Positions 1 through 31,041 of a stretch of DNA of 37,250 bases are shown here, piece after piece. The DNA is from Candidatus Undinarchaeales archaeon (GTDB lineage Archaea > SpSt-1190 > JASMDC01). The stretch is from positions 7,002 through 44,251 of the forward strand of contig JASMDC010000029.1 of NCBI GenBank assembly GCA_030753015.1, given 5' to 3'. The notes beneath the pieces are model-generated. The model saw only the letters and a list, made by a program, of their open reading frames with translations. It made no database searches and was not told the origin of the DNA. Position numbers and translations under genes: made by a program. Positions within the stretch are counted from its first letter, which is position 1. Each line of letters starts with the position of its first letter.

Positions 1-1524
1 TACTGGTTCCTCCGGGGGAAGGTCGTGAGCATCCCATCGGTCGAAGCAATGGAGGGTATGCTCTCCTACCGCATCGCCGAGCTCATCGCCAAGGACCTCG
101 AGGAGTCCCGGGAGGACGCTCTGTGGATGGGATTCCCCGAGGTGAGCGTCCGTCTATACGACACGGGCTTGCTCGTGAAGGCCTCGATCGACGCCAAGGG
201 GAGCGAGGACGGCGAGCGGGGTCAGCTCACGAGCGAGCAGGAGGTGCCCCTGCACCTCAAGCCGCTCCGGGACCTTGCGGAGCGCTACGTACGAAACTAT
301 ACCGTCGAGCGCACCATCGAGGCGTCCCTGCTGAACGCCCTCATCCAGGACCCACGCATACCCGCGCCGCCCGGCATGGTCACCAAGAACCTGGGTTGCT
401 CGGAGCAGGAAGCGCTGGCCTACAAGCGCGATATGATCGCACCCATGCGCGAGAACGCAAGAATGGCCGTGGCCCTTGAGCTTCGGCGGTTGGCGGAGAG
501 CGACCTGGTCACGAGGGAAACAGAGTGGTCTATCGAGGCCGACGAACGTGGCCTTGAGTTCTCTCTTCTGGCCAACGAGGGCGTGCAGGCGGAGGGGCAT
601 GACTGGGAGAGCACAAACGTCGTGTACCACGTCCCGGCCCGTATGCCACACTCCGCTCTGGCCGAGGAGGGGATGTGCTCTTCTTATTACACGGTCGCCT
701 ACACCGCGCGGTTCCCGGTTGAGGTCACTATCACCGACCTCTCCAAACCCGGGATGCTGAAGGGCGTGGAGGGCTCGACCGCTACCCGCCCCCTGACGTT
801 CAAGATAATGCTCGGGATACTGGTGGAGCACAACGAACCCGACGCAGTCGACCTCAACATCACCCTGGACGAGAACGTCACCGACCTCTGCACAGGTGCG
901 TGCTCCCTGCGGGTCATCGTGGAGAACTCCAATGCAGGGCACATCTCCTTGGACACGTGCTCGTACGAGTACAGGGGCGAGGTTTTCAGTGCTCCGAACG
1001 TCCCGTGCGGTGTCCACTCCCTGGTCGTGGAGTCAGGGGAGCCCATCGGCCTTGCACGGTATGCCAAGCAGGTGAACATCGTGGGCAATTACACCGAGCA
1101 GATCGCGTTCACGGAACGGAGCACGGTGCTCGGCAAGGTGGTCGTGCGCGAGCGGGTCTACTGCACATCCTCGGGTACGGTGCGAGAGCTGGGTGACCGC
1201 CCCGCGGGGTTCGTCGATGGTGAGCCGCCCATGTACATCAAGGTGGTCATCCGCTCACTGGAAGGTGACGACCTGGAGACGCGATCCACCATAGCTGACG
1301 AGGACGGACGGTTCCTCCTCTCCGGCCTCGATCCGGGGAAGTACCTCGTCCTCGCCCGGAGTTCCCTCGACCTCACCAACATCCCCTCCTACAAGGTCCA
1401 GCCCGCCGCCTTCATCCAGGACGTCATGCCAGGACGGAACGAGATCGAGATAGTGCTCGAACCGCTCCTCATGGAGCTCGTCGATGACACCTATGTGGCT
1501 GTCAGCTCGCGCAAGGAATGCTGA
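1..1524 (+). CDS. Family B exported membrane-anchored protein, 5'-truncated (B1)
   Basis: The reading frame is open from base 1, so the gene starts upstream of the window; an internal GTG at 25 is not the start. The first visible residues (YWFLRGKVVSIPSVEAMEGM) align with positions about 95-115 of the complete paralogues at 4488 and 33843, so roughly 95 N-terminal residues, including the membrane segment, are missing. Visible parts are a helical/beta ectodomain, the family motif DLC-x-G-x-CS followed by a conserved C-x-Y-x-Y and PCG-x-H (about bases 886-1035), and a C-terminal Cna-B/transthyretin-like domain (ADEDGRFLLSGLDPGKY, about bases 1287-1337). It ends in KEC, matching the terminal cysteine of the other B proteins. 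Function is unknown; a surface structural role is inferred. By analogy with A1-B2 and A2-B3, an A-type gene probably lies just upstream. Confidence 0.85.
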   Translation, partial: YWFLRGKVVSIPSVEAMEGMLSYRIAELIAKDLEESREDALWMGFPEVSVRLYDTGLLVKASIDAKGSEDGERGQLTSEQEVPLHLKPLRDLAERYVRNYTVERTIEASLLNALIQDPRIPAPPGMVTKNLGCSEQEALAYKRDMIAPMRENARMAVALELRRLAESDLVTRETEWSIEADERGLEFSLLANEGVQAEGHDWESTNVVYHVPARMPHSALAEEGMCSSYYTVAYTARFPVEVTITDLSKPGMLKGVEGSTATRPLTFKIMLGILVEHNEPDAVDLNITLDENVTDLCTGACSLRVIVENSNAGHISLDTCSYEYRGEVFSAPNVPCGVHSLVVESGEPIGLARYAKQVNIVGNYTEQIAFTERSTVLGKVVVRERVYCTSSGTVRELGDRPAGFVDGEPPMYIKVVIRSLEGDDLETRSTIADEDGRFLLSGLDPGKYLVLARSSLDLTNIPSYKVQPAAFIQDVMPGRNEIEIVLEPLLMELVDDTYVAVSSRKEC

Positions 1525-1761
1525 CCCCCCGGAGGACGCCCACCCAGCGATACGTTGAACGGAATGATATTCTTCAGAGTTAGGTCAAAATAAGGACAAA
1601 TAGGCCGCAAGAACGTGTGTGGAACAACAGGCAACAATCGGCACAGGGTGGGTACCACGCCCAACGATTCGATGACAGGACCGCAACAACGCCCTAACAA
1701 CGCATATATATAGTTGCAGCCTACAAGTATGAGTGAGCTTATGCTCTAGAGTGGTCCCCTG
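1525..1761 (+). promoter_or_regulatory. Intergenic region with TATA promoter of the A1-B2-C1-C2-C3 operon
   Basis: This 237-bp gap has no convincing gene and is visibly more AT-rich than its flanks. A TATA-like element, CATATATATAG, lies at about 1702-1712. Transcription would start near 1735, giving a leader of about 27 nt before the ATG at 1762. No good Shine-Dalgarno is visible before that ATG. A near-perfect palindrome, GTGG-GTA-CCAC, lies at 1648-1658, about 50 bp upstream of the TATA element, and could be an operator; nothing proves it. A seven-codon frame (ATG at 1730) is too short to call. Confidence 0.6.
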
Positions 1762-4488
1762 ATGGGAAAGGTACGGTTGTTCACGGTTCTGATTGCAGTA
1801 TGTCTTGCGTTCCTGCCCTTAGCGGTAGGAGCAGCGAGTGCAGGTATCGAGGAGGTGGCCGACGTCTCGACATTAGCCCTGATACGTGGTAAGGTGACAT
1901 TTCATATGCCATCGGGCGCCGCCCCGCCACGTGATACCCTCGATGCAGTTTGTCGTCGGCTCACTGACGCGGTCTCTTGCATCCCGAGCGTCGTCGACTC
2001 GCCCGCGGGCTCTGATGTGAGCTTCAACGTCGACCTCCCTCATGATTTATCCATCATCTCCGCCGAGGGAGAGGGTCCGTCGCGTCTCGTTCTCCTCTCC
2101 AAGCTCCGTCCGGTCCAGTTCGCTCTCGGTGCCGGGTTCGGTGACATGACACGGGCCCTGAGCATCCGCTACCCGACCCATACCACTGTCGTGGAAGAGG
2201 TCAGGGACACCGAGATCACTGCGACCATCCCACTGGACATATCCGCTGCACGGGACCTCCCCCTCGCGGATCCAGGCCCCGTTTCCGTGGGCGAGGTGTT
2301 CAGCGTGCCAGCACCTGGGGGCGATATGTGCATCTTCGCCATCCTCGAGGGCTCGAGCGTCGCCGAGTCGCGCCTCGCGCCCGGCTGTCGCGATGCCGTG
2401 CTCTCCACCGCCGGGCTGAGCGCTGGTAGCTCGTACAAGCTTCTCGTCGTGTCTGTGGACGTCGGTGGCATCCGTGCCACTACCAAGGACCTGTTCCTCG
2501 AGAGCGTGGACAATCCGCTGGCCATGACGCTAGACCGTGACACAGTGGTCATGGGCGACCCCTTCACCATCGAGCTCGGCCTCACGTCAGAGTCGTGCAC
2601 GGTCACCCTCACAGATCCGTCAGGGGTCGTGGCCGACCGGCTAGAGCTCAGCGACTGCGACCGGATTCCCGTTGGGACCTCCTCCGGGCTGGCCCCCGGG
2701 AGGTATATAGTCAGGGTGGAGGCAAAGACCGGTGGCAAGGTCAGCACCGCAGCGCGAACCATCGAGGTACGCTCCGGCGGGATGGACGCCACTTCCATGA
2801 AGGTCGAGAAGCGTTCCTATCTTCCGGGCGAGACGGCGAGCATCCACGTGGACACCCCCGGCGACTACTGCTACACAGGCGTGTACAACATGGACAACAT
2901 CAAGGTCGGCGAGGACGCTTCCTTCGGGTGTGGTTCGTACGAGATGAAGCTCGACGAGGCCCTGCCTGCCGGCAAGTACCTCATAAAGACCGAGGTGTTC
3001 GACCGGGGCACACTCAAGGCCGTCGCCTCCACGTCCATCGAGGTCGAGGCGTGGGAGCCCCGCATGCGGACCACACAGGCCGAACTGTGCACACACGGGT
3101 TCATTGCTGTTGACGATCATAGGATCCAGTGCATCTCCGAGAGCGATACGTGTATACCCTCGTCCATCTCGGCTCCCTTCTGCGTGTGCTTTATCGAGGG
3201 CGATGCTCGGTCCGTGTGCGAGTACGGCGATTCCTGCACGTCCCAAGGATGCAAGCCACCAGTGGTCGCGAGCCCGTTCACAATCGTCCACGAGCTGAGC
3301 GGTCGATGTCTCGCGAGGCGTGGCGCCGATACGCTCACCTGTCTGGAGATCGGCGAGATCTGCGGCGACGAGTGTGTATGCCTCTCCGGCGACGGTTCGC
3401 CCATCTCCGCCTGCACGGACGGTCAGGCGTGCCAACCCGAGGGCTGCCGGACCGCCAACCTGGAGTTCAAGGTAGAGTCCCGTTCCGCCGACCATGTCCG
3501 GACCGACATCCTCCGGGGAGGCCTAACCGTGACCTGGGAGGGCACCGTCGACTTCGAGGGGCGTCGCCTCGAGACAGGTCCGCTCGCAGGGAAGGCGTTC
3601 ATCGGGCAGCTGGAGGCCGAGGCGTTCGATGCCTCGTTCGACAGGAATAAATGGGCCGTGAAGGCCGTGTTCAAGGGCGAGCTGGGGCCCGGTGTCCACG
3701 AGCTCTACCTCATGACCGAGCACGGTGGCTACACCCACGTGATCCGCAGGCCGTTCGAGGTCTGGTACCCGGTCGATGCGGGCGACCTCGAGGTCTCTCT
3801 AGAGCGCGTGACACCGCGCCAACTCTCCAGCAAGGAGATGGAGACGGGCACGACCATCGAGCTGGGAGCGCGCATCCGCGACGCCCGGGGGACCGATCTC
3901 GTCTACCTCCCCCAGGACGCATTCACGCTCAAGGCCGGCGGCGTGACCGCCGACTCCGTGGGCGCCGAGTACAGCCCGGTGTCGGGCATCTGGACCATCG
4001 TGGGCGACCTGTACGGGCGCTCGACGGGAGAGGACTCCGTCTCCCTCACCGCGGACTACCTGGGACGCCGGGGTTCGATAAAGGATACAATCTCAGTAGT
4101 GGAACGTATCCCGCTTGCGGTCCGCATCCTCAAGGTGGACCCGGGCACTCGTGACAAACCGCTCTTCTACATGCTCACCACCCTCGGCTTCGACCTGGAC
4201 GTCTTCCTCCACATCCGGGGCGCAGACCGCGTGGACAAGGAGAGCTTTGACATCCGTATGGGCGGCCATCGGGTCAAACCCGAGGACATCTCCTATATCG
4301 TCAGTTCGCTGGAGGGGACGCGCGTGCACATCACACGCGTGCGCCTCTGCCCGCCGGAGAAGCCCAATACGCTCGTCCCCTTGGTGGTGGGCGTGACCGT
4401 CGGTGGCAAGGCAGCCCAGGACACCACCACTGTCCTCATCAAGCGTAATCCGGGTAACTGGGACAACGTCGCGGAGGCGAGGTGCTGA
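1762..4488 (+). CDS. Family A secreted Cys-rich Ig-like repeat protein (A1)
   Basis: The 908-aa product begins with a cleavable signal peptide (hydrophobic residues 5-24, likely cut near GAASA). Residues about 30-170 form a beta domain ending in IRYPTHTTV, a motif shared exactly with A2 at 31042. Residues about 175-435 contain Ig/macroglobulin-like beta repeats with L-x-PGRY-x-V and SYLPGE motifs. Residues 443-562 hold two tandem eight-cysteine modules with a common framework (C-x10-13-C-x6-C-x3-9-C-x-C-x9-10-C-x5-C-x4-C). The rest, to about 900, is further beta domains, and the protein ends in ARC. There is no C-terminal membrane anchor. It is the first gene of the operon and overlaps B2 by one base. 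The role is unknown; secretion and disulfide cross-linking are inferred from the signal peptide and paired cysteines. Confidence 0.88.
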   Translation: MGKVRLFTVLIAVCLAFLPLAVGAASAGIEEVADVSTLALIRGKVTFHMPSGAAPPRDTLDAVCRRLTDAVSCIPSVVDSPAGSDVSFNVDLPHDLSIISAEGEGPSRLVLLSKLRPVQFALGAGFGDMTRALSIRYPTHTTVVEEVRDTEITATIPLDISAARDLPLADPGPVSVGEVFSVPAPGGDMCIFAILEGSSVAESRLAPGCRDAVLSTAGLSAGSSYKLLVVSVDVGGIRATTKDLFLESVDNPLAMTLDRDTVVMGDPFTIELGLTSESCTVTLTDPSGVVADRLELSDCDRIPVGTSSGLAPGRYIVRVEAKTGGKVSTAARTIEVRSGGMDATSMKVEKRSYLPGETASIHVDTPGDYCYTGVYNMDNIKVGEDASFGCGSYEMKLDEALPAGKYLIKTEVFDRGTLKAVASTSIEVEAWEPRMRTTQAELCTHGFIAVDDHRIQCISESDTCIPSSISAPFCVCFIEGDARSVCEYGDSCTSQGCKPPVVASPFTIVHELSGRCLARRGADTLTCLEIGEICGDECVCLSGDGSPISACTDGQACQPEGCRTANLEFKVESRSADHVRTDILRGGLTVTWEGTVDFEGRRLETGPLAGKAFIGQLEAEAFDASFDRNKWAVKAVFKGELGPGVHELYLMTEHGGYTHVIRRPFEVWYPVDAGDLEVSLERVTPRQLSSKEMETGTTIELGARIRDARGTDLVYLPQDAFTLKAGGVTADSVGAEYSPVSGIWTIVGDLYGRSTGEDSVSLTADYLGRRGSIKDTISVVERIPLAVRILKVDPGTRDKPLFYMLTTLGFDLDVFLHIRGADRVDKESFDIRMGGHRVKPEDISYIVSSLEGTRVHITRVRLCPPEKPNTLVPLVVGVTVGGKAAQDTTTVLIKRNPGNWDNVAEARC

Positions 4489-6290
4489 TGGCGTGTCGAC
4501 AGCGAGGCCAGTTGTCGATGATGGCGCTCATGGCCATCTCTCTGGTGATCATCGTTATCGTCGGGGGCTATCTCTATCAGGGCCGTACCGAGCGCGAGAT
4601 CAGGGTGGGACGTATCGCCTCCGAGTCGACCCGCGAGCTCCTCATCAAGCTCGAGCAGCAGGTGGACTCCTTCCTCACCGATTCCATGTACGAGACGGCG
4701 TACGAGATGGCAACACACGGAGGTTTCATCGCCGAGAACGTGCCCGAGCCGAACCATTACGGCGTGCCGTACCTGTTCTATCGCGGAAAGATCGTCAACG
4801 TACCGTCGGTGGAGGTCATGGAACAGATGTACGCCGATGAGGTTAAGCGGCGCTTGGAGACCAAGATCGCCGAGGTCCGACGCGAACTGGAGGGGCGGGT
4901 CATGCTCGCCGTTCCCGAGGTACAGATCACGATCATCGACGATGCCATCATGGCCAAGATGGAGCTGCCCGTCGAGGTGCAGGGCGAGGCCCAGGCCCGC
5001 TCGCGCATCCCTGTCTCCACAACGGTACCCCTGCGTATCAAGCGCCTGCGGGACATGGCCGAGCGGTACGTCCACGACTATGCCACCGTGCGCCGCATGG
5101 AGACGAGCATCCTCCATGGCATCACCAACGACGACCGTATCTCCAATCCTCCCGGCGGTGTCACCCGGACCATCCCCTGCGAGGGGAAGACCATCTTCCG
5201 TACCAAGAAGGAACTGGTCACGCCCTTCAGGGAGAACACACAGCTCTCAGTGTCCTTGGAGCTCAAGCGCGTGCGCGAGAACAAGGATCTGACCGCCGAC
5301 CATATCGAGTGGGACGTGGACCTCAATCCCCGCGAGATCGATTTTAGCTTCCTCGCGAACGAGGATGAGGGGGACTTCAAGAGCACGGACGTCATCTACT
5401 TCGTTCCCATCCCCTTCGCCATGTTCGACCTGCGCGACGGGCTGTGCTTCTCAAAGTACTTCGTCCACTATGACGTCAATTTCCCCGTGCGCTACACCAT
5501 CCGTGACATCATGCCCACGGCCCAGGTCATCGGGAGCGAGACCAAGCTCGAAGTGCGCCCCCTGGAGTTCCAGTTCTACATGATGCCGCTGCTCGAGGGC
5601 GAGGACGCTTTCGCCGTCGATCCGACCGTCAAGGCGTCCCAGACGATGGACGACATGTGTCAGGGCTCCTGCTCGATCGACCTCACCATCACCAACTCCG
5701 ACGCGGGGACCGTGTGGCTCGACTCCTGCAAGTACCGCTACTCCGGTGGCCGCATCTCCCGAGAGGGGGTAGTGTGCAAGCTGCATACCATGGTAATAGA
5801 GCCAGATGCCCAGTTCAACCTTGCCAAGCATGTGGCCCAGGTGAACATCGTCGGCGCCTACCGCGAGATGATCACGCTCAAACCCTTCGCCACCATTTCT
5901 GGCACCATCGGCGAGAACCAGCGGGTGTACTGCACACGGACGCGCTCGGTGCTGGAGCGGGGTACAGAGCCGCTGGGCTCGATGGAGGGAGGTGCCGGCG
6001 GGTCCGTCGAGGTCATCTTCCAGCCCCTCTCCCCGCGCATCGAGCGCAGGCGTGCCGTGGCGGACGAGAAAGGGGAGTACCTGCTCTCCTTCATCGTCCC
6101 AGGCCGCTACCTCGTCATGGCCTTCCCCTCGCGCGACGATTCGGGGATGCCCTATGGTACGGTGGAATCGAAGGGGATGATCTATGAAGTAAAGGAGGGA
6201 AAGAACACACTCGACATTACACTGGAGCCGTTGGGCGTCCAGAAAGTGGGAAACGACTACGTGCGAGTATCGGCAACGGAGGACTGTTAA
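4488..6290 (+). CDS. Family B membrane-anchored surface protein (B2)
   Basis: The ATG at 4488 (MACRQRGQ) is preferred over a GTG six bases earlier because GAGGTG lies just upstream and the ATG overlaps the A1 stop (TGATG). The product is 600 aa. The N-terminus has RGQLSMMAL followed by a hydrophobic stretch (residues about 12-32). This resembles archaeal class III (prepilin/EppA-type) signals but lacks the usual Glu at +5, so it may stay as an uncleaved anchor. A charged helical stalk (about 33-80) leads into a beta ectodomain with motif DMCQGSCS at about 388-395 and paired cysteines. A Cna-B/transthyretin-like domain (about 505-582, DEKGEYLLSFIVPGRY) precedes the terminal EDC. It lies between A1 and C1, one base from C1, so the three are probably co-translated. 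It is likely the membrane-tethered part of the assembly. Confidence 0.87.
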   Translation: MACRQRGQLSMMALMAISLVIIVIVGGYLYQGRTEREIRVGRIASESTRELLIKLEQQVDSFLTDSMYETAYEMATHGGFIAENVPEPNHYGVPYLFYRGKIVNVPSVEVMEQMYADEVKRRLETKIAEVRRELEGRVMLAVPEVQITIIDDAIMAKMELPVEVQGEAQARSRIPVSTTVPLRIKRLRDMAERYVHDYATVRRMETSILHGITNDDRISNPPGGVTRTIPCEGKTIFRTKKELVTPFRENTQLSVSLELKRVRENKDLTADHIEWDVDLNPREIDFSFLANEDEGDFKSTDVIYFVPIPFAMFDLRDGLCFSKYFVHYDVNFPVRYTIRDIMPTAQVIGSETKLEVRPLEFQFYMMPLLEGEDAFAVDPTVKASQTMDDMCQGSCSIDLTITNSDAGTVWLDSCKYRYSGGRISREGVVCKLHTMVIEPDAQFNLAKHVAQVNIVGAYREMITLKPFATISGTIGENQRVYCTRTRSVLERGTEPLGSMEGGAGGSVEVIFQPLSPRIERRRAVADEKGEYLLSFIVPGRYLVMAFPSRDDSGMPYGTVESKGMIYEVKEGKNTLDITLEPLGVQKVGNDYVRVSATEDC

Positions 6291-6291
6291 C

Positions 6292-9200
6292 ATGGTACGG
6301 GATACCGTCCTTGCCGTCATCCTCGCCGCCGCTCTTATGACGGTGACGGGCCTGGGGGCCACACAATGTATCAACAAGGAGTATGCGCCGCCGTGCGAGG
6401 GCATCGATTGCGATGCTCCCGGCTGGAGGCTGCCTACCGTCGGGTTCGACGATGACGGCGCCACCACCATCTCGACCGGTACCGTGACCGCGAACGTCGG
6501 GCCGGACCAGGTGATGCGCGGACTTGTCATCGATGGCGGGGAGGTGAAGGTGGACATCGGTCAGGAGGGGGTCGACCACGTCATGCTCGTCACCGATACA
6601 GGGAACCGCATCAAGGTGGCCCGGGACGGTAGCGTGGACATAGAGGACGGCTCCTACACTCTCACCGACGGTACGCCCATCCAGGTCATCGGCGGCCGTA
6701 TGCGGCTCACCGAGCCACAGGTATTCTCGTCGGGGAACGTGGACGTCACCATCGACAATGAGGGAGTCGAATGGATCACCATGAGGACCGACGAGGGCAA
6801 TCAGATCACCGTGATGGCTGACGGTGATACAACCTTCGACGACGGTAACTATCGGCTCCTGGATGGCACCGAGGTGCGTATCGAGGGAGGATCGGTCCAG
6901 CTCCCCTCCTCCATGGAGTACGGCAGCGAGGACGGGACTGTCTCGGTCTCGGTGGGTAACAACGGCCTGGACGGATTCGTCATCATCCCCCCGAGCGGCG
7001 GGAGCATCCGCATCGACGACGACGGTGACCTCAGGGCCGATGACGGCGTGTACACGATCGACGGCCGGACGGTCCGTTCCGTGGACGGTAGACTGCCCTC
7101 GGGCACCATCTCGCTCGGTCCCGGCGCATCATTCGACCTCGACTATGACGTGGCTGACCGGTTCTCCGGTCGGTTCGACGGTCCGGCAGGTGCCATCACG
7201 TTCCAGGACGGGAGACCTTCAGGTCGCCTTGACCTCAGGCGCGATGGACGGGAGTTCACATTGGACCTTGACAGGGGCGACGGCGCCTTTAACTTCGCTG
7301 GTCCCGATGGGGACGCGGCCACATCCTTCGACCGCCGTGGTGTCGTGGGCGCGACCATTGACATGGGCGGAGGTGCACAGATCACCATGGGTCAGGGTCC
7401 TTTCGGTGGGAACATGGCCATCGACATGAACCTCGATGGACAGCACATCACATTCGATCCCCAGCACGGTCCAAGCGGCAAGATCGCGGCGAACAAGGAC
7501 GGGGCAAACTACGCCATCAACCTCGACCAGGGCGCCGGCCATGTGAGTCTTGCGGATGGTACGTTCGACATGTCCTTCGATCCCCAGCGGGGCATGATCG
7601 ACGGCTCCATCCGTGTGAACGAGAACGGTGTCAACGCCGATATCGACCTTACCGGCGCAGGTCCCCGCGGTCGCATCGACTTCGGGGACGGCGGAGGTAT
7701 CACTTTCGGCCCCAACGGCTTCGACGGGGGATTCTCCACCGGCGACGGCGATAACAAGATCGACTTCGACTTCGGACCCGGGGGCATCGGTGTCAAGGGG
7801 ATGGCAGACGGGAACAAGTTCGACTTCGGTCTCGGCCCCAACGGCTTCGACGGGGGCATGAACCTCGGAGGGGACAAGGGCGGAGGCGGGAAAGGGTTCG
7901 ACATCGGCCAGCTCGGCAAGGTGCTCGGCTCCTTCCCCATGCAGGGCGGCGGACGTGCGTCCTTCACGCCCCAGGGGACCGCGCTCCAGTACGGCCCCTC
8001 CACGGTGAAGCTGGACAACGGTGCCATCTCCACCGAGACGACGAAGCCCGAGACGGGCGCCGGCCAGGATGCAGGCCAGGAGGATAGCGGTGAGAAGGGC
8101 ATGAACGTCTGCACGCCCAGGCTGCTCTCCCGACCCCAGACCGCTGGCGGAGGAGGCCCGCCCATGGACCCCTCGCTCACCGACTGCGATCCCAAGCGGA
8201 CCGCCGTGAACCAGCGGGAGCACGTCGACAAGCTCGTCAACGACTTCAACCGCGCCAATGAGTACTACTCCACCATGCTCGCGAATCTCGAGACCATTCG
8301 GAAGGGATTCGAGCAGTGGTGCCAGAACTGCCAGAAGGCCACACAGGAGTTCATACAGAAGCGGTACATGCCCTGCGGCGGGAAGCTCGCTATGAATCCC
8401 ACTCCGGCCAAGGTAGCCGCCGATCCTACCTTCGGCCCCGAGATCTGCGGCGAGTCGGTGAAGACACTGTGCGCGCCCGACAACAAGGAGACAGCGGAAT
8501 GCACTGCCAACACCAAACCCTTGGACAACGCCAAGGCCTGCCCCCTGTGTCTGACGGTGAACTGCGTGTTCGGGGACAAGTGCGAGATCGGCTTCCCGAA
8601 CAACAAGGGCGCCGGGAAGGAGCAGCAGCCGAAGGAGGACGAGGCTGGCTCCGGTGGCGAGAAGGGCAGCGAGGAGGACGAGAAGGCCAAATCGGAGGCA
8701 TGCGGTGCCCAGAGCGGTGAGCAGCCTCCTAGCGGACAGCAGCCCCCTGGCGGTGCCCAGCCCCCCGGTGGTCAGCAGCCTCCGGGTGGTCAGCAGCCCC
8801 CTGGCGGTAAACAGCCCGGCGGTGGCGGTCTGCCCTTCGACCCGAGCGGCATGTTCAAGCCCAAAGAGGACGAGAAGGATGAGCCCGAACCGACTCCCCA
8901 GCCTACACCCGAACCTGAGACCGATGAGCCCCTGGACGAGGTCCCACCCGAGGAGGCACCTCTCGAGGGACAGTCGGAGAACACAGAGTCGTCGTGCACC
9001 TGCGAGGGTACCTACGAGCCGGTGTGCGGTACCGACGGACGCACCTACATCAACCGGTGCATCGCCGGATGCTTCAAGGTGGAGGTGGCCCATGACGCCG
9101 CCTGTGACGAGTGGTGTGAGACCGATGCGGACTGCATCCCCGAGCGCTGCTGTGCTACCGAGACCAAGTGCGTGTGCGTCAACAACCGATGCCAGCGCGG

Positions 9201-12639: not shown

Positions 12640-12652
12640 GGGGTATTTATTT

Positions 12653-12660
12653 GGTGGGAG
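12653..12660 (+). promoter_or_regulatory. Shine-Dalgarno deciding the C2 start
   Basis: GGTGGGAG lies five bases upstream of the ATG at 12666, in a 26-base spacer after C1. It favours 12666 over the in-frame TTG at 12651 and places the signal peptide (MRRRRWSSV...) at the true N-terminus. The start of this spacer (CTAGGGG-x-TAT) is repeated after C2, which suggests that gene and linker were duplicated together. Confidence 0.65.
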
Positions 12661-12665
12661 CTGTC

Positions 12666-15600
12666 ATGAGGCGGCGGAGGTGGTCAAGCGTAGCAGTGCT
12701 CGGCTACGCCGTGGGCCTCATCCTTCTCCTCGTACCGGCCCTCGGGCTGACGCAGTGCATCAACCGCGATTACGGCCCGCCATGCCAGGGCCTCGAGTGC
12801 TCCCCGGACCGTGCGGGAGAGCCGCCGAACGTCCACCTCGACCTCGACGGGACAACTACCATCTCGGACGGCGTGGTCACTACGACGGTCGGGCCCGACC
12901 GCACGGTGCGCGGGTTCGTTATCGATGGGGGCGACGTCCGCGTGGACGTGGACCACGATGGCGTGGAAACCGTCATACTGGCGACCGAGAGCGGCCATCG
13001 CATCCGTGTCCAGCGTGACGGGACCGTCAATATAGAGGACGGTTCCTACATGCTCACAGACGGCACCGCCATCCGCGTCGCAAACGGGCGTATGTCGCTC
13101 CTCGATCCCCAGACCTTCACCTCGAGGGATATGAGCGTCACAATCGGCAACAAGGGCATGGAGAAAGTCACGGTAGTGACCGATGAGGACAGAATGATCG
13201 ATGTCTCGCCGCATGGCGAGACCACTTTCGAGGACGGCACCTACCGGTTCATGGACGGCACCGAGGTGCTCATGGAAGGCGGATCCCCCCAGCTCCCCGT
13301 CGACATGGTGTTCACGACCGATGACGGTTCGATCACCCTCTCAATCGGGAACAACGGGCTAGGTGATGTACTGCTGTCGACTCCGGAGGGCGGAGAGGTG
13401 CGTATCGGCCCGGCCGGCGAACTCCAGGCCGCTGAGGGCAGCTACACGCTGGACGGTGACCGGCGCTGGACGCTCGGGGGCACCCTCCCAGAGGGCACGC
13501 TCTCCCTCGGTGACAAGGCATCGATGGAGATAGAGTACGACGTGGCCGACCACTTCGCCGGACGTGTTGAGACCCCCGCGGGCTCTCTGTCCTTCCAAGA
13601 TGGGAGGCCCACCGGTCGGCTCCAGCTCAGGCGCGAGAGCAAGGAGTACATCATGGAACTTGAGGAGGGCGACGGCACGCTCGCCTTCTCGAGCGACGAG
13701 GACCAGTTCTTCACGGACTTCGACCGACGCGGGATCATCGGGGGGACCATGGACATGGGCAAAGATACCCACCTTCGCATGGAGCGGGGACCGTTGGGGA
13801 GGACCACCGTGCTCTCTCTGGACATCGGCGACCAGCAGCTCACCTTCGATGCCACGCAGGGACCGAGCGGCGCCCTGGCCGTCAACAAGGACGGTAACTC
13901 GTATGCGCTCGACCTCTCCGACGGTATCGGCAGCGTCCAGCTCGCTGACGGGGCGTTCGACATGTCCTTCGATCCGAGCGGACTGGCCGACGCGTCCATC
14001 CAGATAAAGGACGATGTCACGTTAGACCTGGACCTTGACCGCGGTACCGGTACGTTCGATGCGGGCATCGGCTACAAGGGTGGCGACGTCCGGTTCAGTC
14101 CCGACAAGGGATTCTCCGGGAGCTTCTCCTTCGGAGAGGGGGACGGGAAGGTCGATGTGAACATGGGGAACGGTGGCATCGGCGTCTCTGGCGGAGGCGG
14201 CGGGGGCGGGGGCGGCCAGGGTTTCGACCTCGGGTTCGATCCCACCAAGGGATTCACGGGGGGTATGGGCTTCCCCGGCGGGAACGGGGACCTGCAGTTC
14301 GGTGCCGACGGCCTCACCGGCAATGTCAACACGCCCTTTGGTACGGCTAAGTTCGGCCCCCAGGGCATTGATATGGGGTACGGCGGAGTGTTCAACATGA
14401 ACGTCGCGCCCGACGGCGCCATGACACCCAGCCTGTCGACAGCGGCCGATGGGGCCGGTGAGTCGGCGACGAGCGGTAAGGCGACGAACATCTGCACGCC
14501 CCGCCTGCTCAAGGAGACCACCGTCAGCGGTGGTGGTGGATCCCCGCTCGACCCATCCCTCACGGACTGCGACCTGGCCCAGACAGCGACCAACCTGCGC
14601 GAGCACGCCGATAACCTGATCAACGACTTCACCCGGGCGATCGAGTACTACTCCGCCCTGGTCACCAATCTCGAGACCATGAAGGGCGGGTTCGACCAGT
14701 GGTGTTCTAACTGCATGCAATCGGTCTCTGGGTTCATGGCCAAGGGGTATGTACCCTGCGGCGGTAAGCTCGCCCCACCGCTCACTCCCGCCTCGATCGC
14801 AGCGGATCCCGGCTTCCGACCGACAATCTGTGCCGCGGCGGCGATGGAGAAGTGCCCGCCCGGGGCAGCGCAGACTGCCCAGTGCACAGCATCGTCCATG
14901 CCCAATCCCCTGGCCAAAGCGTGCCCGCTCTGCCTGACGCTCAACTGCGTGTACGGGCATGAGTGCAAGATCGGTTTCCCCAATCCTGCCGCCGCAGGCT
15001 CGTCAGCCCAGGGGGAAGCGGGCGGTCCCGCGGCGGCCCAAGGCGCGGGCGCCAAGGCCGCGTGTGGTGCCCAGGGGGCAGCGGGAGCTGGAGGTCTGGG
15101 CGACGCGCTCGGCGGTGTGGGCGACGCATTGGGCCAGGCCAAGAGCATGATGGACAAGGCCAAGAGCCTCATGCCCAAGGGCGGGCAGCCAGGCGGTGGG
15201 CAACCGGGAGGAGGTCAGCCAGGGGACGATCAACCGGGTGGCGGGCAGCCAGGCGGGGGGCAACCGGGAGGTGGCGAACAGGAGCAGCCACAACAGCAGG
15301 ATACGGCCGATAATCCCAATCCGACGTGCTCCTGCAGTGCCGAGGAGGCACCCATCTGCGGTACCGACGGACGCACCTACTTCAACAGCTGTCTGGCAGG
15401 GTGCTTCGGGATAGAGGTGGCGCACGAGGGTGAGTGCGAGACATGGTGCACAACAGACGCTGACTGCGTCCCTGACCGCTGCTGCACGACCGACACCCGG
15501 TGCACGTGCGTCAACAATCGATGTCGCTCGGGCATGCACGCGAGCCTGGCGCCCCTGAGGACGACCGCTCGGGCTACGCCGATGATAGCAGGATTCAGCG

Positions 15601-18929: not shown

Positions 18930-18939
18930 GGGATATCGG

Positions 18940-21900
18940 ATGGCGACCTATATGACAGGAGCGGTGTCGGGGATGCGGGCCATATCGGCCTGTCTTCTCG
19001 TGCTCGTCCTGTTCGCCCCGTCCGCCCTCGGTATCCGCCAATGCGTCAACCGCGAATACGCTCCACCATGCCAGGGCGTCGATTGCGCTCCGGTAGAGCT
19101 GGGAACACCGCCGGACCTTACCTGGAACGATGACGGGTCGACCGTCATCACTACCGCCGACGAGGTCATCACTGCCAATGTGGGGGCCGACCGGGTCATG
19201 CGCGGTCTCATCATAGATGGTGGCGATATCCGTGTCGACGTCGGCGAGGACGGCGTACTGTCCCTGGACCTTGTGACCACCGACGGCCTGCGCATCACGG
19301 TGGAGCGGGACGGGAGCGTGAACCTGGAGGACGGCACCTACACCCTCACCGACAACACCACCATACGCGTTGTCAACGGGAAGATGCACCTCACTGAACC
19401 CCAGGTGTTCACGTCCCGCAACGTCAACGTCACCATCGGCAACAAGGGTATCGAGCAGGTCATCGTGGTCACTGACGAAGGTCATTTGGTACGCATCGCT
19501 CCAGACGGCGAGGTGACGTTCGACCATGGCTCCTACTGGCTGATGGACGGCACTGAGGTCTCCATCGAGGGGCGGAACGTCATCCTTCCGGAATCAAAGA
19601 CCTACTCATCGTCCGATGGTCTCGTCACCGTCACCATAGGTAACAACGGGTTCGAGGAACTGGTGCTCACACCCGCTGGTGGTGGCGAGGTGCGGATCAA
19701 CGCCGACGGCGACCTCAGTGTGGTGACGGGCGACTATATCATGGACGACGTGCCCTACTACTCCCCGGGCGGGAAGCTCCCCGAGGGTGAGCTGTCACTG
19801 GGCCCCGAGGCGAGCTTGGAGATCGAGTACGATGTGGCCGACCGGTTCGCGGGCACATTGCGTACACCGGCAGGAACCCTGGTCTTCAAGGACGGACGCC
19901 CCTCGGGGCGTCTCGAGCTCGTCACCAAGGATCGGACGGAGACGCTCACCTTCGAGTCGGGGACGGCCCTCGTGCATGCCCTCGAGGACAGACTGGCGGC
20001 CATCCTGGAACAAGCGCTCCACGAGACCGCCGATGAGATGGCGCAGCACGGAGGGTACACCCCTGAAAACGTCCCCGATCAGAACCTCGACGGTGTCCCC
20101 GTCCTCTTCAACAAGGGAAAGGTCACCAACATCCCCTCTTCGATTGCGATGGAACAGATGCTCGCCCAGGGAGTGAAGCGACGTGTCGAGGACAGGCTGG
20201 TCGAAGTGCGGCGCCAGCTCAGCGGGAGGGCTGATGCCGGAACACCCGAGGTGGAGGTGAACCTCGATACCAACGAGATCACCGCCATGCTTGTGCTCCC
20301 CCTGAACATCGACAGCGACGCCGAGCTCCCTTCGAGCATCCCCATACGGACGTCCGTCCCGCTCAGGCTCAAGCTCCTACGCGACCGGCTGGCCACGTAT
20401 CTGAGGGAGTACGCCGAGGGACGCAATATGGAAACTACGCTCCTCTCCCACCTAATAGAGGACGAGCGTATACCCTCGCCACCGGGCGCGATCTCCAAGA
20501 GCGTCGAGTGCGACCGCGGTGAAATGCTCGCTACCATCGGGGACATTGCACGCCCCGTAGGCGAGAACATCCACATCTCGGTGAACGAGGAGCTCGTGCG
20601 CGTGGACCGAACGGCCGCGTTCACCACAGACTCCGTCGGATGGGAGATGGTGCCTGTGGACAAAGGGGCCCAGCTCTCCCTCCTGGCCAACGAGGGCGTC
20701 AAGGACTATGAGAGCCGGGTGGTCATCGCACTAGTGCCCACTCCCGGGCCGGTCAGTGACACTTGCGTCGGCCGGTACTCCATCCAATACGACATCAGCT
20801 TCTCGGTTAGCGCCAGTGTCAGCGACAACTCGCCCGCGTTCCAGGTCAGGCGCGGCGATCCCGCCCGGCCCGAGAAGCATCCGCTCACCCTCCGGTTCGT
20901 CATGGTACCGCTCCTCCAGGGAGAGAACGTCAATGCTCTCGATGAGGAGGTGACCGCGCCAGAGGAGGCGGATGACCTGTGCACAGGTGCGTGCTCGGTC
21001 CACCTTACCGTCCCGGACTCCGGCTCGGGCACGGTGTGGATCGGTCCATGCAGCTTCGAGTACACCGGCGGCCGCATCGACCTGGAAGAGGCACCATGCG
21101 GTGACCACGAGCTCATCGTCGAGCCCGACGAGTTCGAACTTGATCGTCACCGGGAGCGGGTCTCCGTGCGTGATGTGCACCGGGCCGAGGTGACCCTCCC
21201 GCCACGCGACGCCGGTCCGGAGCGGCCGAGCGCGGTCACAGTCGACCTTGAGCGGGGGGACGGCCTAATCTCGTTCACCACGGGCGTGGGCAGCTTCACT
21301 ACCACCTTCGATGCCCGGGGCGTCATCGGCGGGACCGTGAGCGTAGGCGGTGGCGCGAACGTCCAAGTTGGACGGGGTCCATTGGGTAGGAACCTCGCCC
21401 AAACCCTGAACGTCGGTGGTCAACAGCTGTCCTTCGATGTGCAGAACGGCATCAGTGGGGCCCTCGGAGTCACTAAAGGCGGCAACTCGTACACGCTCGA
21501 TGTCCTCAGCGGTGTCGGGGCTGTCCAGATGACCACCGGGCCCTTCGACATGGCGTTCAACACCGCCGGTCTCGCCGATGCCTCAATCCAAGTGGCCGAT
21601 GACGTCAGCCTCAACATGAACCTCATCCCCGCCACGGGCAACTTCGGTGTGGGTATCGGGTTCGAGGGGGCCAACATCAACTTCGATCCAATGGCCGGCT
21701 TCTCCGGCGGGTTCGGCTTCGATGTCGGTGGCGGTCAGTTCGGTGTCAATCTCGGTGCTGGCGGTCTCGGTATCAACGCCAACGTGGGTGGTGAGAACTT
21801 CAACGTCGGGTTCAACGACGGCGCGTTCACCGGGGGTATCGCCTTCGGCGGCGGCAACGGTGGTATCAACATCGATCTGGGCGGCGCCGTCACCGGCTCG

Positions 21901-24900
21901 TTCAACACGCCCTTCGGTACAGCGAACATGGGCCTCACCGGCGATGGTGTCACGCTCGGCTTCGGTACCTTCGACATGAACATAGGTCTGGACGGTGCCT
22001 TCACGAGCAACCTGGCCGAGGGGCTGCAGAACCTGGGCCAGAGCGTCGTCGACAGCGTAAAGGGCCTCGTCGATGACGCACTATCGGGCAAGCTCACCAA
22101 CATCTGCGAACCACGCCTCCTGAGCGAAACGCAGGTCAGTGGCGCAGGTGGACCGTTCCTCGACCCCATGCTCACCGACTGCGATCTCGAGCGCACGGCC
22201 GACAACCTTCACGAACATATCGACAACATCATCGTCGATTACGAGAACGCGATCGAGTATCACACGACACTGGTGGAGAACCTCGAGTCCATCAGAGGAG
22301 GGTTCGAGGAATGGTGCGGGAACTGTGAATCGTCCATCAGCGGTTTCATGGCCAAGGGCTACCTGCCCTGTGGCGGTAAGCTCTCCATGAAGCCGACACC
22401 CAGCAAGGTCGCCTCCGATTCCGGGTTCAAACCCGAGATATGCGCCATGTCTGTGATGGCCCTGTGCGCACCCCAGAACCCGCTCACCGCGTGGTGCACC
22501 GCGGCCTCGTTCCCGAGCCCGCTCGGACTGGCCTGCCCGCTCTGCCTCACCCTCGACTGCGTGTACGGTTCACAGTGCATGATCGGGTTCCCCAACCCGA
22601 AGGCTGCCGGCGCCGCTGCTACCGCTGCAGGGACGGCGGCCAAGGGTGCGGGCAAGGCTATGATCGGTGGCGTCGCCGGGGCCGCCTCGTGCGCGGCACA
22701 GAGCGCCATGGGAGGTGCGGGTGGCGAACCGCCCCTGCCACAGGAGGAGCCCCCGCTCGAAGAGATGATCCCGCGGGAGGATTACGAGGAGCTGACGCCA
22801 GAGGTGCTACAGCAGCTGAAGGACCAGCCGCGCAACGGTACCTGCGTATGCGACGGCTCCGGTGGCCAGGTATGCGGTACGGACGGTCGCACCTACATCA
22901 GCCGATGCGTCGCTGAGTGCCTCGATATCCGGGTCGCCCGGGACGGCGCCTGTGAGGAATATTGCACCTCGGACGCTGACTGCGTCCCTGACGCCTGCTG
23001 CGACACCGTGACGGCCTGCTCGTGCGTGGACAACCGCTGTGTCGGGCCCGAGGACTCGGCCCCGGACCCGTGGACACCGCCGACGACCACGACCACCGCG
23101 GCGGAGGATGCAGTTGACGAGTGGAACCCGTCCGAGATCACCGTGGACCCGGTGGAGGCAGGGGTCACCGTGAACGAGGGCAATGCAGGGATCCCTATGG
23201 AGGTCTGGGAAGAGGCCATCCCCGACATGGGCGGCGGAGGCGGAGGGGACGATGATGGCGGAGGAGGCGGAGACGGCCCCGGCGTCAGTGTCACCGTGAA
23301 CATACCCATTGGCGAGATCGGCAACCTCGGTCAGCTCGGCGGTGGGCTGGGGAAGCTCGGCGAGGGCCTCGGGAAGATCGGCGATGGGCTCAACGCCATC
23401 ACCAAGCCCGTCCAGGACCTTGCCCAAGGAGTACAGAACGCGGTCGATACAGTGACGAAGCCTATCACGGACGCCATGCAGGGTGTACAGAACACAATCG
23501 ACCAGGGCATCCAGAACATGGGCGATGCTATCACCGGCGGGACCGGGGACCTCTCGAGCATGACCGGCGAGGCGGGAGGGGAGGCCGGCGGCGAGGCGGG
23601 CCAGCAGGGCGATGAGGATCCGGGTGTCTGCCTGCCGTTCAAGGGGAAGATGGCCTGCAACAGCATGGGCGCTCCGGCCGTGTACGACGTACCGCCACCG
23701 CCCATCGGCGCGCCGGTCATGGACCTGGGCGTCAAGGGCTGCATCACCCAGGGCGCGCCCATCACTTGCACGATGCCCGACTGCATCGCTTGCGAGACGG
23801 AGTGCCTCCCCATGTGCGGGGACGAGATAGGGTGCCCGGTATGCACAGGGCTCATGGAGCTCACCGAGATACCCAAGCGCGTGCCGCCCATCCCCGGCGC
23901 TTGCACCAACAATCACTGCTGCGGTACGCCGTTCTCCTGCGTCGACTACAACATGCCCGACCTCTGCGAGATCCCTTGTGGCTGGTGCGGTCCGGTCCCC
24001 TGTATCTGGAAAGCCGCTACGTGCTTCCCAGAGTTGCACAACTGCGCCGATGTCACCCAGGCGACCCTGGTAACCAAGAAGAAGCTCAACTCCATCCCGT
24101 CGCCCGGCGGTGTCGCAGAGTGCTCACAGAACGTGGCCGACCTAAAGGACGTGTGCACCGTTGAAGGTTCCAAGGAGCTCAAGTCGGGGATCCTGGACCC
24201 GTGCGAGATCGGCGACAAGCTGGACGTGGTCATCGAGGAGCTGCACGACCTAATCGACCGCATGAGCCAGGCCGTCGAGGAGCTCTATGACGTGTCGGGC
24301 CAGCTGGACTACGAGCACTCGCAGGGCTTCACCGACCGGCGCTCGGCCACTATCAAGGAGACGATCAAGCGCATCACCGATATCCTGGAGGGCGCCAAGG
24401 GCGACAAGGACTTCCAGATACGTCTGGCAAACTTCGTACGGTTGTTCCAGAACGATGACTTCCGGGGCGACATCTCCGAGAACGAGCAGCTCACCGCTGC
24501 CATGTTCGGTATACTGCCCTACGCCGAGGGAGCGCCGGGTATGGCGATGTGGATGGGCTACTGCATGGACTTCCAGCTCTGCGGCGGGTGCTCTGGAGGG
24601 CCCGTCCAGGCTGGATGCCTCGGCCCCACGTCCATCGGGAGCTACCTGCCCAACATCCTCGACTTCAGGGGCCGGTGCATGTCGGTGCCCGCGGCCACCG
24701 TGGTCAACGAGCGCAGCTTCGACATGTGGGGCGACACGAGCGCTCTGGACAACTTCGCCAACATCGATGCCGAGGAGGACCTGTTCATCGACACCCTGAA
24801 GTGCTACAAATACGACTCCGAGAGCACCGGATGGGAGAACCGGACGAGCGGCCAGGGCATACCGTACGACGAGGGCATTGAAACACCCGGCGGGGAGGTA

Positions 24901-26835
24901 ACACCGCCGGAATGCGTCGCCGCCTGCAGCGAGTGCTACGGGATCGACCAAGCGCATTGCCACGCTCACCTCGGCCTCTGCGTGTGCGAGGCCGGCGATA
25001 GGGACATCCTCACGTCCCAGTCCTGCGAACCCAGCGCCCGCGTGAGCGAGGACATGCTGGGATGCTGCGAGCGTCTCCTGTCTGTGGGCGCCGAGAGCAT
25101 CGACAGCCCCGGCGGTGAGCTATGCACGGGACCTATCCTCAGGGGTATCACGGTCGACCTCTGCTCGGACGGTTCCGGCCTGTGCTGCAAGCACCGGTTC
25201 AACGAGGTCCCCCTCGAGGGCAACTGCGAGGCCGTGGAGGCGGCAGGGGTCGGGACGTGCGAGGACATGTGCATGGACGTCTTCGACCGGGAGACCGCCG
25301 ACTGGTGCGCCGAGCGGTGCCCGGCGATCGACATCTCCTGCGAGGCGGCTTGCCTCGGGACCGAGGTGGACACAGAGTGCCTGAGCGAGTGTGTCCCGCA
25401 GCGGCCCCTCTCGTGCATGCAGGACTGTATAGCTGGCCACGAGGGCCAGGAGGCCGACTGCGTCCGGGCGTGCAAGGCCGTCTCGCCGCGAGCGGAAGTG
25501 GACGGGTACGTTGGTCGTTCGAAGGCCCCCGACGTGCCGGGACAGGTGTTCACCGCGGGGGACGCGGTCGTCGCCGGCGCAGTAGTGAACAACACCGGCG
25601 AGGTCCCCCTCATCGGCACCGCCCGTCTCTCCCTGGTCACCCTATCGGACTGCTCGTGCTCTGGCAGTGACTGCGCCTGTGAAGAGGATGTGCAGCTGGT
25701 CAGAGAGATACCGGTACGTCTCGGTCCGGGCCGGTCCATGACGATCCCGGCGCTACCTGTGGACGTCGGCCGCGAGGACGTGTCGGTCCAGACGCTCGTC
25801 GAGATCCTGGACGAGAACGGGAACGTAATCGTTTCCCAACGCGGCCCCATCTCTCATGTGGTGTCGTCAGGCGCCGTGACCGTTCGGGACGCCTACTTCG
25901 TCACATCGGGCGGGAGGAGCACCGAGGTGTACCCCGGCGCCCCCATCCATGGTGCCGTGACCATCGAGTCGAAGGCCTACCCCGTGACCCTCGATATCTC
26001 GCTGGTCATAGGTAGCACAACCGCCGCCGATTCGGTGGCGACGTTCACGCTCGCAGGCCCCACTCTCGACCGCGCCGTCGCCAGCGACTCCTACACAGCA
26101 CAGGACGCTGACCTAGGCAAGGTGCTCCGCATCCACATCAAGGTGACCGATGTCGCCGGCGCCGTGCTCCTCGAAGAGACCCTCGCCGAGCAGGGCATGA
26201 CCACTGAGACCTGCACCGCCAAAATGACTGAGTACTGCCTATCCAACCTCGGGAATGTTAAGCCGAGCTATCCCCTCGCTCATGCCGAGGTGCGACCGTT
26301 GAGCCTCACGGTCCGGGACGCGGCCTTCATGAGCCTGGGTGCTCGGCCCATCGCCGCCATTTTCGGGAGGGCGGACGTGGTGGCCATCGCCTGGGTCCGG
26401 AACATGCTGTCCGTCCCCTTCGACGGACGCATCGAGGTCAAGGTCGTGCGGGAGGGCGGCGCCGCTATCGCCACCAAGGAGACCTGGGCTACCGGGGACA
26501 GGGTGCTCGAACGTGGTGACGAGGTCGCCGTCCAGGTCGAGGCCTTCGGTGTGGAACCGGGCAACGCCTACTCCCTGCACGTGTTCGCCGAGGACAACGG
26601 GGGCAGGGTCTGGCTGGACGAGGTGCTCACGGACACGGTCTTCCCCAATGCGTGTCTGAGCGTCGAGGCACGTGATCCGTCCGCACAGGGTGGCGATATC
26701 AACACCGTGATCACCATCGGCACCTGCCGGCTCAGGGTCGAGTGCACGGGGTGTTCGTCCCTGTGCGAGCTCCATGTCGATCCGTCCGACTGCTCGCTAC
26801 TGCCGAAGAACTGCGACTGCGAGTGTGTGTACTGA
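18940..26835 (+). CDS. Family C giant protein with inserted B-type ectodomain (C3, hybrid)
   Basis: The product is 2,631 aa from ATG 18940 (GGGGAT upstream; ten bases after the C2 stop). ATG 18952 is an alternative. A signal peptide (core ACLLVLVLFAPSALG) is followed by QCVNREYAPPC and the ~66-aa beta repeats. At about residue 340 the C beta region is interrupted by about 420 residues homologous to the ectodomain of B1/B2/B3, then resumes at VDLERGDG. After the Gly-rich segment come a Kazal-like domain (1302-1338, QVCGTDGRTYISRC) and a WAP-like cluster. A unique linker follows: a TTTTT run, a GGGGGG acidic stretch and a long amphipathic region rich in G-x-G-x-L and VQN-x-VD heptad-like repeats (about 1450-1540). 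The common Pro/Cys segment, helical region, CxxxC repeats, Ig-like domains and terminal CDCECVY then follow. It is the last gene of the operon, and its 3' end faces ribK 17 bases away. Function is unknown. Confidence 0.88.
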   Translation: MATYMTGAVSGMRAISACLLVLVLFAPSALGIRQCVNREYAPPCQGVDCAPVELGTPPDLTWNDDGSTVITTADEVITANVGADRVMRGLIIDGGDIRVDVGEDGVLSLDLVTTDGLRITVERDGSVNLEDGTYTLTDNTTIRVVNGKMHLTEPQVFTSRNVNVTIGNKGIEQVIVVTDEGHLVRIAPDGEVTFDHGSYWLMDGTEVSIEGRNVILPESKTYSSSDGLVTVTIGNNGFEELVLTPAGGGEVRINADGDLSVVTGDYIMDDVPYYSPGGKLPEGELSLGPEASLEIEYDVADRFAGTLRTPAGTLVFKDGRPSGRLELVTKDRTETLTFESGTALVHALEDRLAAILEQALHETADEMAQHGGYTPENVPDQNLDGVPVLFNKGKVTNIPSSIAMEQMLAQGVKRRVEDRLVEVRRQLSGRADAGTPEVEVNLDTNEITAMLVLPLNIDSDAELPSSIPIRTSVPLRLKLLRDRLATYLREYAEGRNMETTLLSHLIEDERIPSPPGAISKSVECDRGEMLATIGDIARPVGENIHISVNEELVRVDRTAAFTTDSVGWEMVPVDKGAQLSLLANEGVKDYESRVVIALVPTPGPVSDTCVGRYSIQYDISFSVSASVSDNSPAFQVRRGDPARPEKHPLTLRFVMVPLLQGENVNALDEEVTAPEEADDLCTGACSVHLTVPDSGSGTVWIGPCSFEYTGGRIDLEEAPCGDHELIVEPDEFELDRHRERVSVRDVHRAEVTLPPRDAGPERPSAVTVDLERGDGLISFTTGVGSFTTTFDARGVIGGTVSVGGGANVQVGRGPLGRNLAQTLNVGGQQLSFDVQNGISGALGVTKGGNSYTLDVLSGVGAVQMTTGPFDMAFNTAGLADASIQVADDVSLNMNLIPATGNFGVGIGFEGANINFDPMAGFSGGFGFDVGGGQFGVNLGAGGLGINANVGGENFNVGFNDGAFTGGIAFGGGNGGINIDLGGAVTGSFNTPFGTANMGLTGDGVTLGFGTFDMNIGLDGAFTSNLAEGLQNLGQSVVDSVKGLVDDALSGKLTNICEPRLLSETQVSGAGGPFLDPMLTDCDLERTADNLHEHIDNIIVDYENAIEYHTTLVENLESIRGGFEEWCGNCESSISGFMAKGYLPCGGKLSMKPTPSKVASDSGFKPEICAMSVMALCAPQNPLTAWCTAASFPSPLGLACPLCLTLDCVYGSQCMIGFPNPKAAGAAATAAGTAAKGAGKAMIGGVAGAASCAAQSAMGGAGGEPPLPQEEPPLEEMIPREDYEELTPEVLQQLKDQPRNGTCVCDGSGGQVCGTDGRTYISRCVAECLDIRVARDGACEEYCTSDADCVPDACCDTVTACSCVDNRCVGPEDSAPDPWTPPTTTTTAAEDAVDEWNPSEITVDPVEAGVTVNEGNAGIPMEVWEEAIPDMGGGGGGDDDGGGGGDGPGVSVTVNIPIGEIGNLGQLGGGLGKLGEGLGKIGDGLNAITKPVQDLAQGVQNAVDTVTKPITDAMQGVQNTIDQGIQNMGDAITGGTGDLSSMTGEAGGEAGGEAGQQGDEDPGVCLPFKGKMACNSMGAPAVYDVPPPPIGAPVMDLGVKGCITQGAPITCTMPDCIACETECLPMCGDEIGCPVCTGLMELTEIPKRVPPIPGACTNNHCCGTPFSCVDYNMPDLCEIPCGWCGPVPCIWKAATCFPELHNCADVTQATLVTKKKLNSIPSPGGVAECSQNVADLKDVCTVEGSKELKSGILDPCEIGDKLDVVIEELHDLIDRMSQAVEELYDVSGQLDYEHSQGFTDRRSATIKETIKRITDILEGAKGDKDFQIRLANFVRLFQNDDFRGDISENEQLTAAMFGILPYAEGAPGMAMWMGYCMDFQLCGGCSGGPVQAGCLGPTSIGSYLPNILDFRGRCMSVPAATVVNERSFDMWGDTSALDNFANIDAEEDLFIDTLKCYKYDSESTGWENRTSGQGIPYDEGIETPGGEVTPPECVAACSECYGIDQAHCHAHLGLCVCEAGDRDILTSQSCEPSARVSEDMLGCCERLLSVGAESIDSPGGELCTGPILRGITVDLCSDGSGLCCKHRFNEVPLEGNCEAVEAAGVGTCEDMCMDVFDRETADWCAERCPAIDISCEAACLGTEVDTECLSECVPQRPLSCMQDCIAGHEGQEADCVRACKAVSPRAEVDGYVGRSKAPDVPGQVFTAGDAVVAGAVVNNTGEVPLIGTARLSLVTLSDCSCSGSDCACEEDVQLVREIPVRLGPGRSMTIPALPVDVGREDVSVQTLVEILDENGNVIVSQRGPISHVVSSGAVTVRDAYFVTSGGRSTEVYPGAPIHGAVTIESKAYPVTLDISLVIGSTTAADSVATFTLAGPTLDRAVASDSYTAQDADLGKVLRIHIKVTDVAGAVLLEETLAEQGMTTETCTAKMTEYCLSNLGNVKPSYPLAHAEVRPLSLTVRDAAFMSLGARPIAAIFGRADVVAIAWVRNMLSVPFDGRIEVKVVREGGAAIATKETWATGDRVLERGDEVAVQVEAFGVEPGNAYSLHVFAEDNGGRVWLDEVLTDTVFPNACLSVEARDPSAQGGDINTVITIGTCRLRVECTGCSSLCELHVDPSDCSLLPKNCDCECVY
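19957..21231 (+). other. In-frame insertion of a B-family ectodomain inside C3
   Basis: Between the strand TETLTFESG (left) and the resuming strand VTVDLERGDG (right), the C3 protein aligns with B2 residues about 55-460. Shared stretches include ALHETADEMAQHGGY against SMYETAYEMATHGGF, then MEQM, VKRR, EVRR-x-L, VPLRLKLLRD, DDLCTGACS and the PCG-x-H region. The membrane segment and the Cna-B domain of B are absent. In C1 and C2 the flanking strands are contiguous, and the C3 flanks look like a duplicated beta strand. Boundaries are good to about 20 codons. Confidence 0.85.
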
Positions 26836-27506: not shown

Positions 27507-27529
27507 GTCACGCGGGGAGCGGGGAGAAT

Positions 27530-27537: not shown

Positions 27538-27559
27538 CTTTGCGGCGTTCATCCTGGAC

Positions 27560-30985: not shown

Positions 30986-31007
30986 GGAACGGGCTTTCCT
31001 AATCAAC

Positions 31008-31015: not shown

Positions 31016-31041
31016 ATCTTGTCGGGCGTTCGATTGTTCAC

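Follow-up and report, generated by a model that had tools for sequence, protein, structure and literature searches.

We asked whether the giant, cysteine-rich exported proteins encoded side by side in this archaeal DNA belong to one surface system and, if so, what that system might do. The stretch analysed (the window; 37,250 nucleotides) is C39:7002–44251 of an archaeal assembly that comprises 117 contigs and 3.85 Mb. The initial annotation had described three paralogous families arranged as B1 // A1-B2-C1-C2-C3, with a further A2-B3 pair; this arrangement was confirmed, and every open reading frame (ORF) lay where it had been placed, on the forward strand. B1 (1–1524) encodes a pilin-like anchor whose 5′ end falls outside the window, upstream of it and beyond a short N run in the contig. 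A1 (1762–4488) encodes a protein predicted to be exported by Sec, with chained Ig/MG-like domains and two cysteine-rich segments (27 Cys), and B2 (4482–6290) has a likely ATG at 4488, forming TGATG with the A1 stop. The three giants are C1 (6292–12639; 2115 aa, 94 Cys), C2 (12651–18929, with a likely ATG near 12666; 2092 aa, 98 Cys) and C3 (18913–26835; 2640 aa, 106 Cys). A2 (31042–33846) is overlapped at its stop by the ATG of B3 (ATGA; 33843–35714); the start first listed for B3 (33648) was too early, and the RGQ signal comes after ATG 33843. The five-gene unit proved as tightly packed as had been proposed: its junctions are overlaps or gaps of 1–26 bases, depending on the start chosen; therefore, A1-B2-C1-C2-C3 is likely to be one transcript. 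Pairwise identities were far above chance level, indicating that the members of each family are indeed paralogous (A1 and A2, 32% across approximately 900 aa; B2 and B3, 37%; C1 and C2, 55%).

The families extend well beyond the window. A B profile search of the whole genome returned 20 B genes in addition to an insert in C3, and there are likewise 20 A genes. An A gene directly adjoins 19 of the 20 B genes, in either order, in agreement with the proposed one-to-one pairing, and the pairs are spread over at least 15 contigs. A genome search with the C-terminal module of the giants gave approximately 22 giant C-type ORFs of 1,067–3,145 aa, and most A-B pairs have a cysteine-rich giant ORF adjoining or next to them (surroundings of up to approximately 20 kb and more). 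Cysteine richness, which had been noted for all three families, holds across the genome: 25–29 residues in A, 8–16 in all scanned B and usually 80–207 per giant. With C3 counted once, the coding sequences sum to approximately 60 kb for A, 38 kb for B and 147 kb for the giants; that is, this archaeon devotes approximately 6% of its genome to these proteins. Nine other members of the phylum, essentially without B, have genomes of 0.6–1.1 Mb, against 3.85 Mb here. At two giant loci, C20 and C53, no A or B gene was seen within the stretch read; at C20 (L206 1133–13689 and 14235–18998), two giants, one with an M23 domain and an SLT-like block, lie downstream of a protein of 1587 aa that begins with a macroglobulin MG2-like part. 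Giants at C27, C46 and C74 are likewise counted as unpaired. A 3,450-aa ORF at C38 7159–17511 (+) contains just 2 Cys; it is oriented opposite to an A-B pair and overlaps the beginning of this pair's A ORF.

Nearly all B proteins of the genome, and nearly all full-length B homologues of DPANN archaea, carry an RGQ or KGQ class III signal motif and a hydrophobic stretch as a sequence pattern. In the AF2 model of B2 (mean pLDDT of 89.9), an unbroken helix of 72 residues (residues 7–78; 4500–4715) continues into a globular head, in which an alpha/beta part is followed by transthyretin/CnaB-like domains. The initial annotation had not recognised a pilus protein in the system; a reading as something other than a pilus protein is unsupported because B carries the signal motif and helix of the pilin type. 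B is pilin-like in its sequence and model, with a putative cleavage site. The same class III signal and long N-terminal helix support, as an interpretation, the membrane-anchor role that had been assigned to B, and our best reading of these predicted features is a minor-pilin-like anchor or primer. In fold comparison, the C-terminal transthyretin/CnaB-like domains alone matched (Z ≤ 10.2, model 470–584), and the N-terminal head (approximately 80–390) was hardly covered. At approximately 600 aa, B is far longer than ordinary pilins. No pilin family model for B was found in Pfam or NCBIfam, and neither a PDB sequence search with B or the C-terminal module of the giants nor an NCBIfam search with A, B and C returned anything useful.

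AF2 models A as a string of Ig/macroglobulin-like domains (pLDDT 82.8), the relative placement of which is unreliable owing to a pTM of 0.47. Together with the model of B, this model agrees with the cysteine-rich beta architecture that had been anticipated. Alpha-2-macroglobulin/CD109 is likewise built of such domains; however, with a TM of ≤0.2 and no sequence family match, A has the domain class alone in common with it. Profile searches of genome and viral contig collections found no full-length relative of A outside its own genome; matches elsewhere were confined to Ig-like stretches. Homology between A and the DPANN giants was rejected on comparison. An Ig-like adaptor is our best reading of the modelled A protein.

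The C proteins combine a constant end with variable contents. A 330-residue C-terminal module is common to 13 aligned giants and always forms the end of the protein (11647–12636 in C1, 17937–18926 in C2 and 25843–26832 in C3). C1 contains a Kazal_2 domain (residues 900–929, 8989–9078; Pfam E = 3.7e-5) and C2 a Kazal-like domain (residues 892–932, 15324–15446; phmmer against PDB 1an1_I, E = 1.1e-8); other giants of the genome have C-type lectin, FG-GAP, TSP3 or several Kazal domains. These observations support C as the large variable part, and the predicted export of A, B and C held as well, with the signal peptides of A and C judged by hydrophobicity and sequence. The N-terminal repeat region of C3, as the initial annotation had missed, contains a B ectodomain that lacks the anchor helix (residues 354–764, 19972–21204) and is 39% identical to B2; this fusion speaks for B and C being physically close. 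All four Peptidase_M23 matches and the sole SLT match of the genome fall in giants, and two of the giants concerned, C21 and C41, directly precede A-B pairs. The SLT module retains the ES...GGIMQ...YN.G motif. One giant has it close to the N-terminus and another close to the C-terminus; the two copies are 62% identical, above the rest of the proteins, indicating that the module has moved. In the M23 domain of the C21 giant, the first metal-ligand position is, on our own reading, D instead of H. In C1–C3, Pfam recognised no enzymatic domain, and SLT was absent; therefore, lysis cannot be claimed for these three proteins.

The initial annotation had proposed conserved adjacency of the families in other archaeal genomes as a check. 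This held for B and a giant, which recur together in DPANN archaea, a recurrence of B that had been missed; A and the C scaffold were not found elsewhere. The condition named as refuting, that homologues of the three families never occur together in other genomes, is thus answered in part. B profiles found relatives in a range of DPANN-like genomes. B aligned to an unannotated family of Woesearchaeota, Pacearchaeota and Nanoarchaeota (hhalign probability 99.7, E = 5.7e-27, 442 columns), and a scan of named genomes gave 62 B loci in these groups, including the complete genome AR20. Of the 60 loci in which a gene follows B, 47 have a giant ORF of at least 900 aa immediately 3′ of B; the two genes usually overlap by 4 or 8 bases. 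Eight of the other loci reach the contig end. ORFs of this size make up approximately 1.4% of the remaining ORFs in the same loci, and the binomial tail for the enrichment is approximately 1e-75, uncorrected for relatedness. Pfam domains among the 47 giants included SLT (10), Amidase_3 (2), Peptidase_M23 (1) and VanY (1), as well as Ig and fn3; Castelle et al. 2021 (PMC8204110) had already reported some of these proteins as lytic-transglycosylase giants. When the window's own C proteins were aligned to the DPANN giants with hhalign, the best P was 0.075, from short helical stretches barely above reversed controls. A shared function with the DPANN giants thus rests on B, position, export and type of cargo, as the C scaffold has no detectable homology. 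The recurrence suggests that the pair of anchor and giant is a device, widespread and for the most part undescribed, with which these archaea contact or attack other cells. A single B sequence gave no match in 61 relatives, nor did a B profile in nine phylum-mates; a deeper B profile gave one weak match in these nine (G002, E = 4.5e-5). B was absent from the viral contigs. In several Woesearchaeota (L125, L130, L134, L135, L136, L140 and L163), a conserved winged-helix-like ORF of approximately 61 aa overlaps the start of B, and in L122 such an ORF is in frame at the listed B start. A secretion ATPase next to DPANN B was also considered, and three short T2SSE-like matches, 5–8 kb off, were unconvincing.

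Putative genes for pilus assembly were found beside one of the approximately 20 loci of the window's genome. At C26b, a T2SSE secretion ATPase (E = 4.8e-14) with a cysteine-rich N-terminal part, a polytopic membrane protein with no Pfam match, A and B form an unbroken run. The genome has four Peptidase_A24 matches and five T2SSE matches above the cut-off. Archaeal ATPases with cysteine-rich N-termini have been described, and a nanoarchaeal ATPase was reported without identified cognate pilins (Makarova et al. 2016, PMC4858521); B is a candidate pilin for this nanoarchaeal type IV pilus ATPase. Two further secretion ATPases followed by polytopic proteins have a ferredoxin-like N-terminal part; one lies at C40 131523–133937 (Fer4, Pfam), and the other, at C75 (L195 5864–7831), has 21 Cys and a CxxCxxC motif.

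Taken as a whole, the locus is probably a surface-display system, a reading that we hold with moderate confidence, in which B is a minor-pilin-like protein, A an adaptor and C a set of modular giants that bind and sometimes lyse other cells. B would be exported, a prepilin peptidase would probably cleave it behind the K/R-G of the RGQ motif, and the long N-terminal helix of B would anchor it, either in the membrane or as part of a type IV pilus-like assembly. A, as a Sec-exported Ig-like rod, would act one-to-one with B as a bridging adaptor. The C proteins would be Sec-exported giants stabilised by disulfides; their constant C-terminal module could, as a guess, be the docking end, and the variable N-terminal part would present repeats, Kazal, C-type lectin, FG-GAP or peptidoglycan hydrolase domains as cargo. 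B may thereby carry or prime the giant on the cell surface, and the displayed giant would bind other cells, which in some loci it could also lyse. Bacteria are the probable partners or prey because the cargo of some loci is predicted from its domains to cut peptidoglycan. A bolder form of the proposal, which we put forward tentatively, makes B a new class of DPANN minor pilins, with a type IV pilus assembly projecting modular giants that bind or open bacteria, and gives the lineage of the window some 20 exchangeable weapons or adhesins.

Several other explanations were weighed against this display system. B may merely be a membrane anchor and A-B-C an envelope coat, S-layer-like or formed of spikes, with no type IV pilus assembly. 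Ig-like rods and cysteine-rich repeats fit a coat, S-layer proteins are among the Foldseek matches (Sap for A and SlaB for B), and most loci lack an ATPase and TadC of their own. However, the pilin-type signal and long helix of B, and the existence of a cluster of ATPase, TadC-like protein, A and B, speak against it; moreover, a lattice protein would not be expected in approximately 20 diverged copies whose cargo varies and includes hydrolases. We consider such a coat unlikely. Highly improbable is an artefact of binning or assembly, i.e., that the loci come from contaminating contigs: contamination was estimated at 5%, but the A-B pairs are scattered over at least 15 contigs, an archaeal CTP-dependent riboflavin kinase lies beside the A-B loci in the window, and the B homologues are archaeal.

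What the giants do to their targets divides the remaining explanations. A contact-dependent antibacterial or predatory system, in which giants open bacterial walls and adhesin-type copies choose the prey, is possible but doubtful. The confinement of SLT and M23 to giants in the window's genome and the hydrolases in DPANN giants agree with it, archaeal peptidoglycan hydrolases can kill bacteria (PMC12352652), and predation has already been proposed for Woesearchaeota (PMC8204110, PMC9723730); against this, most giants, C1–C3 included, have no recognised enzymatic domain, and the M23 domain of the C21 giant has the altered metal ligand. The copies in the window that lack hydrolases, along with the C-type lectin, FG-GAP and Kazal modules, could instead mean that the giants modify or hold the cell's own envelope or that of a symbiotic partner, i.e., adhesion without killing. 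We regard this as somewhat unlikely. To our knowledge, murein is absent from archaeal envelopes; SLT and M23 domains would therefore have no substrate of the cell's own.

The system had been called apparently undescribed; this holds only in part, since DPANN archaea were already known to have giant lytic murein transglycosylase proteins (fam00969), reported as single genes in Woesearchaeota and Pacearchaeota (Castelle et al. 2021, PMC8204110; PMC9723730). No published account of the B partner and the operon was found in the open-access full-text literature, and in this respect the description stands. Like fam00969, the proteins considered here are giant and exported, some with SLT, and such giants were found directly downstream of a B homologue. 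However, the C1–C3 scaffold has no detectable homology to them, SLT is absent from C1–C3 and present in a giant at another A-B locus of the genome, and the window's system adds A, the cysteine-containing C-terminal module and an approximately 20-fold expansion. Type IVa minor pilins with the PilY1 tip adhesin (PMC7541494) and archaeal type IV pilus loci with large PilY-like proteins (PMC4858521) likewise place a pilin-type gene beside a large exported non-pilin; the differences are that C1–C3 match neither DUF2341 nor PilY/PilC, that B is of far greater size, and that an own ATPase occurs at one locus only. The SPEARE giants of Nanohaloarchaeota (PMC10266531) resemble them in being giant, exported and partly Ig-like surface proteins of DPANN archaea, whereas the present giants are smaller and cysteine-rich, and Pfam found no VirB4/TraG ATPase domain in C1–C3 or the other scanned giants. 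The analysis thus places DPANN wall-hydrolase giants, previously known only as single genes, in an operon with a partner protein. It also proposes candidates for the previously unidentified cognate pilins of nanoarchaeal type IV pilus ATPases (PMC4858521). If the display reading is right, the grip or attack of tiny archaea on other cells becomes directly testable as a two- or three-gene system.

Other genes recur beside the A-B loci. The gene divergent from A2 (D; 30122–31159, reverse strand, with an uncertain start at 30985–31048) had been missed in the initial annotation. It encodes a signal/TM protein with a C-terminal winged HTH (DUF7343/MarR_2) and belongs to a family of exported/TM proteins with such a cytoplasmic tail that lies beside five A-B loci (the window copy, C29 212586–213605, C32 12408–13421, C76 6064–7062 and C36 12210–13307). 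D is possibly a membrane-bound regulator of the A-B system. At two A-B loci, D is adjoined by a member of a further family, E (C29 213695–214423 and C32 13418–14110), proteins of approximately 230 aa with an N-terminal signal and one TM near residues 140–165. Between the two clusters of the window (26853–29271) lie a CTP-dependent riboflavin kinase with an HTH (Pfam) and two genes that by eye resemble Mtd and Ftr of the methanopterin C1 pathway.
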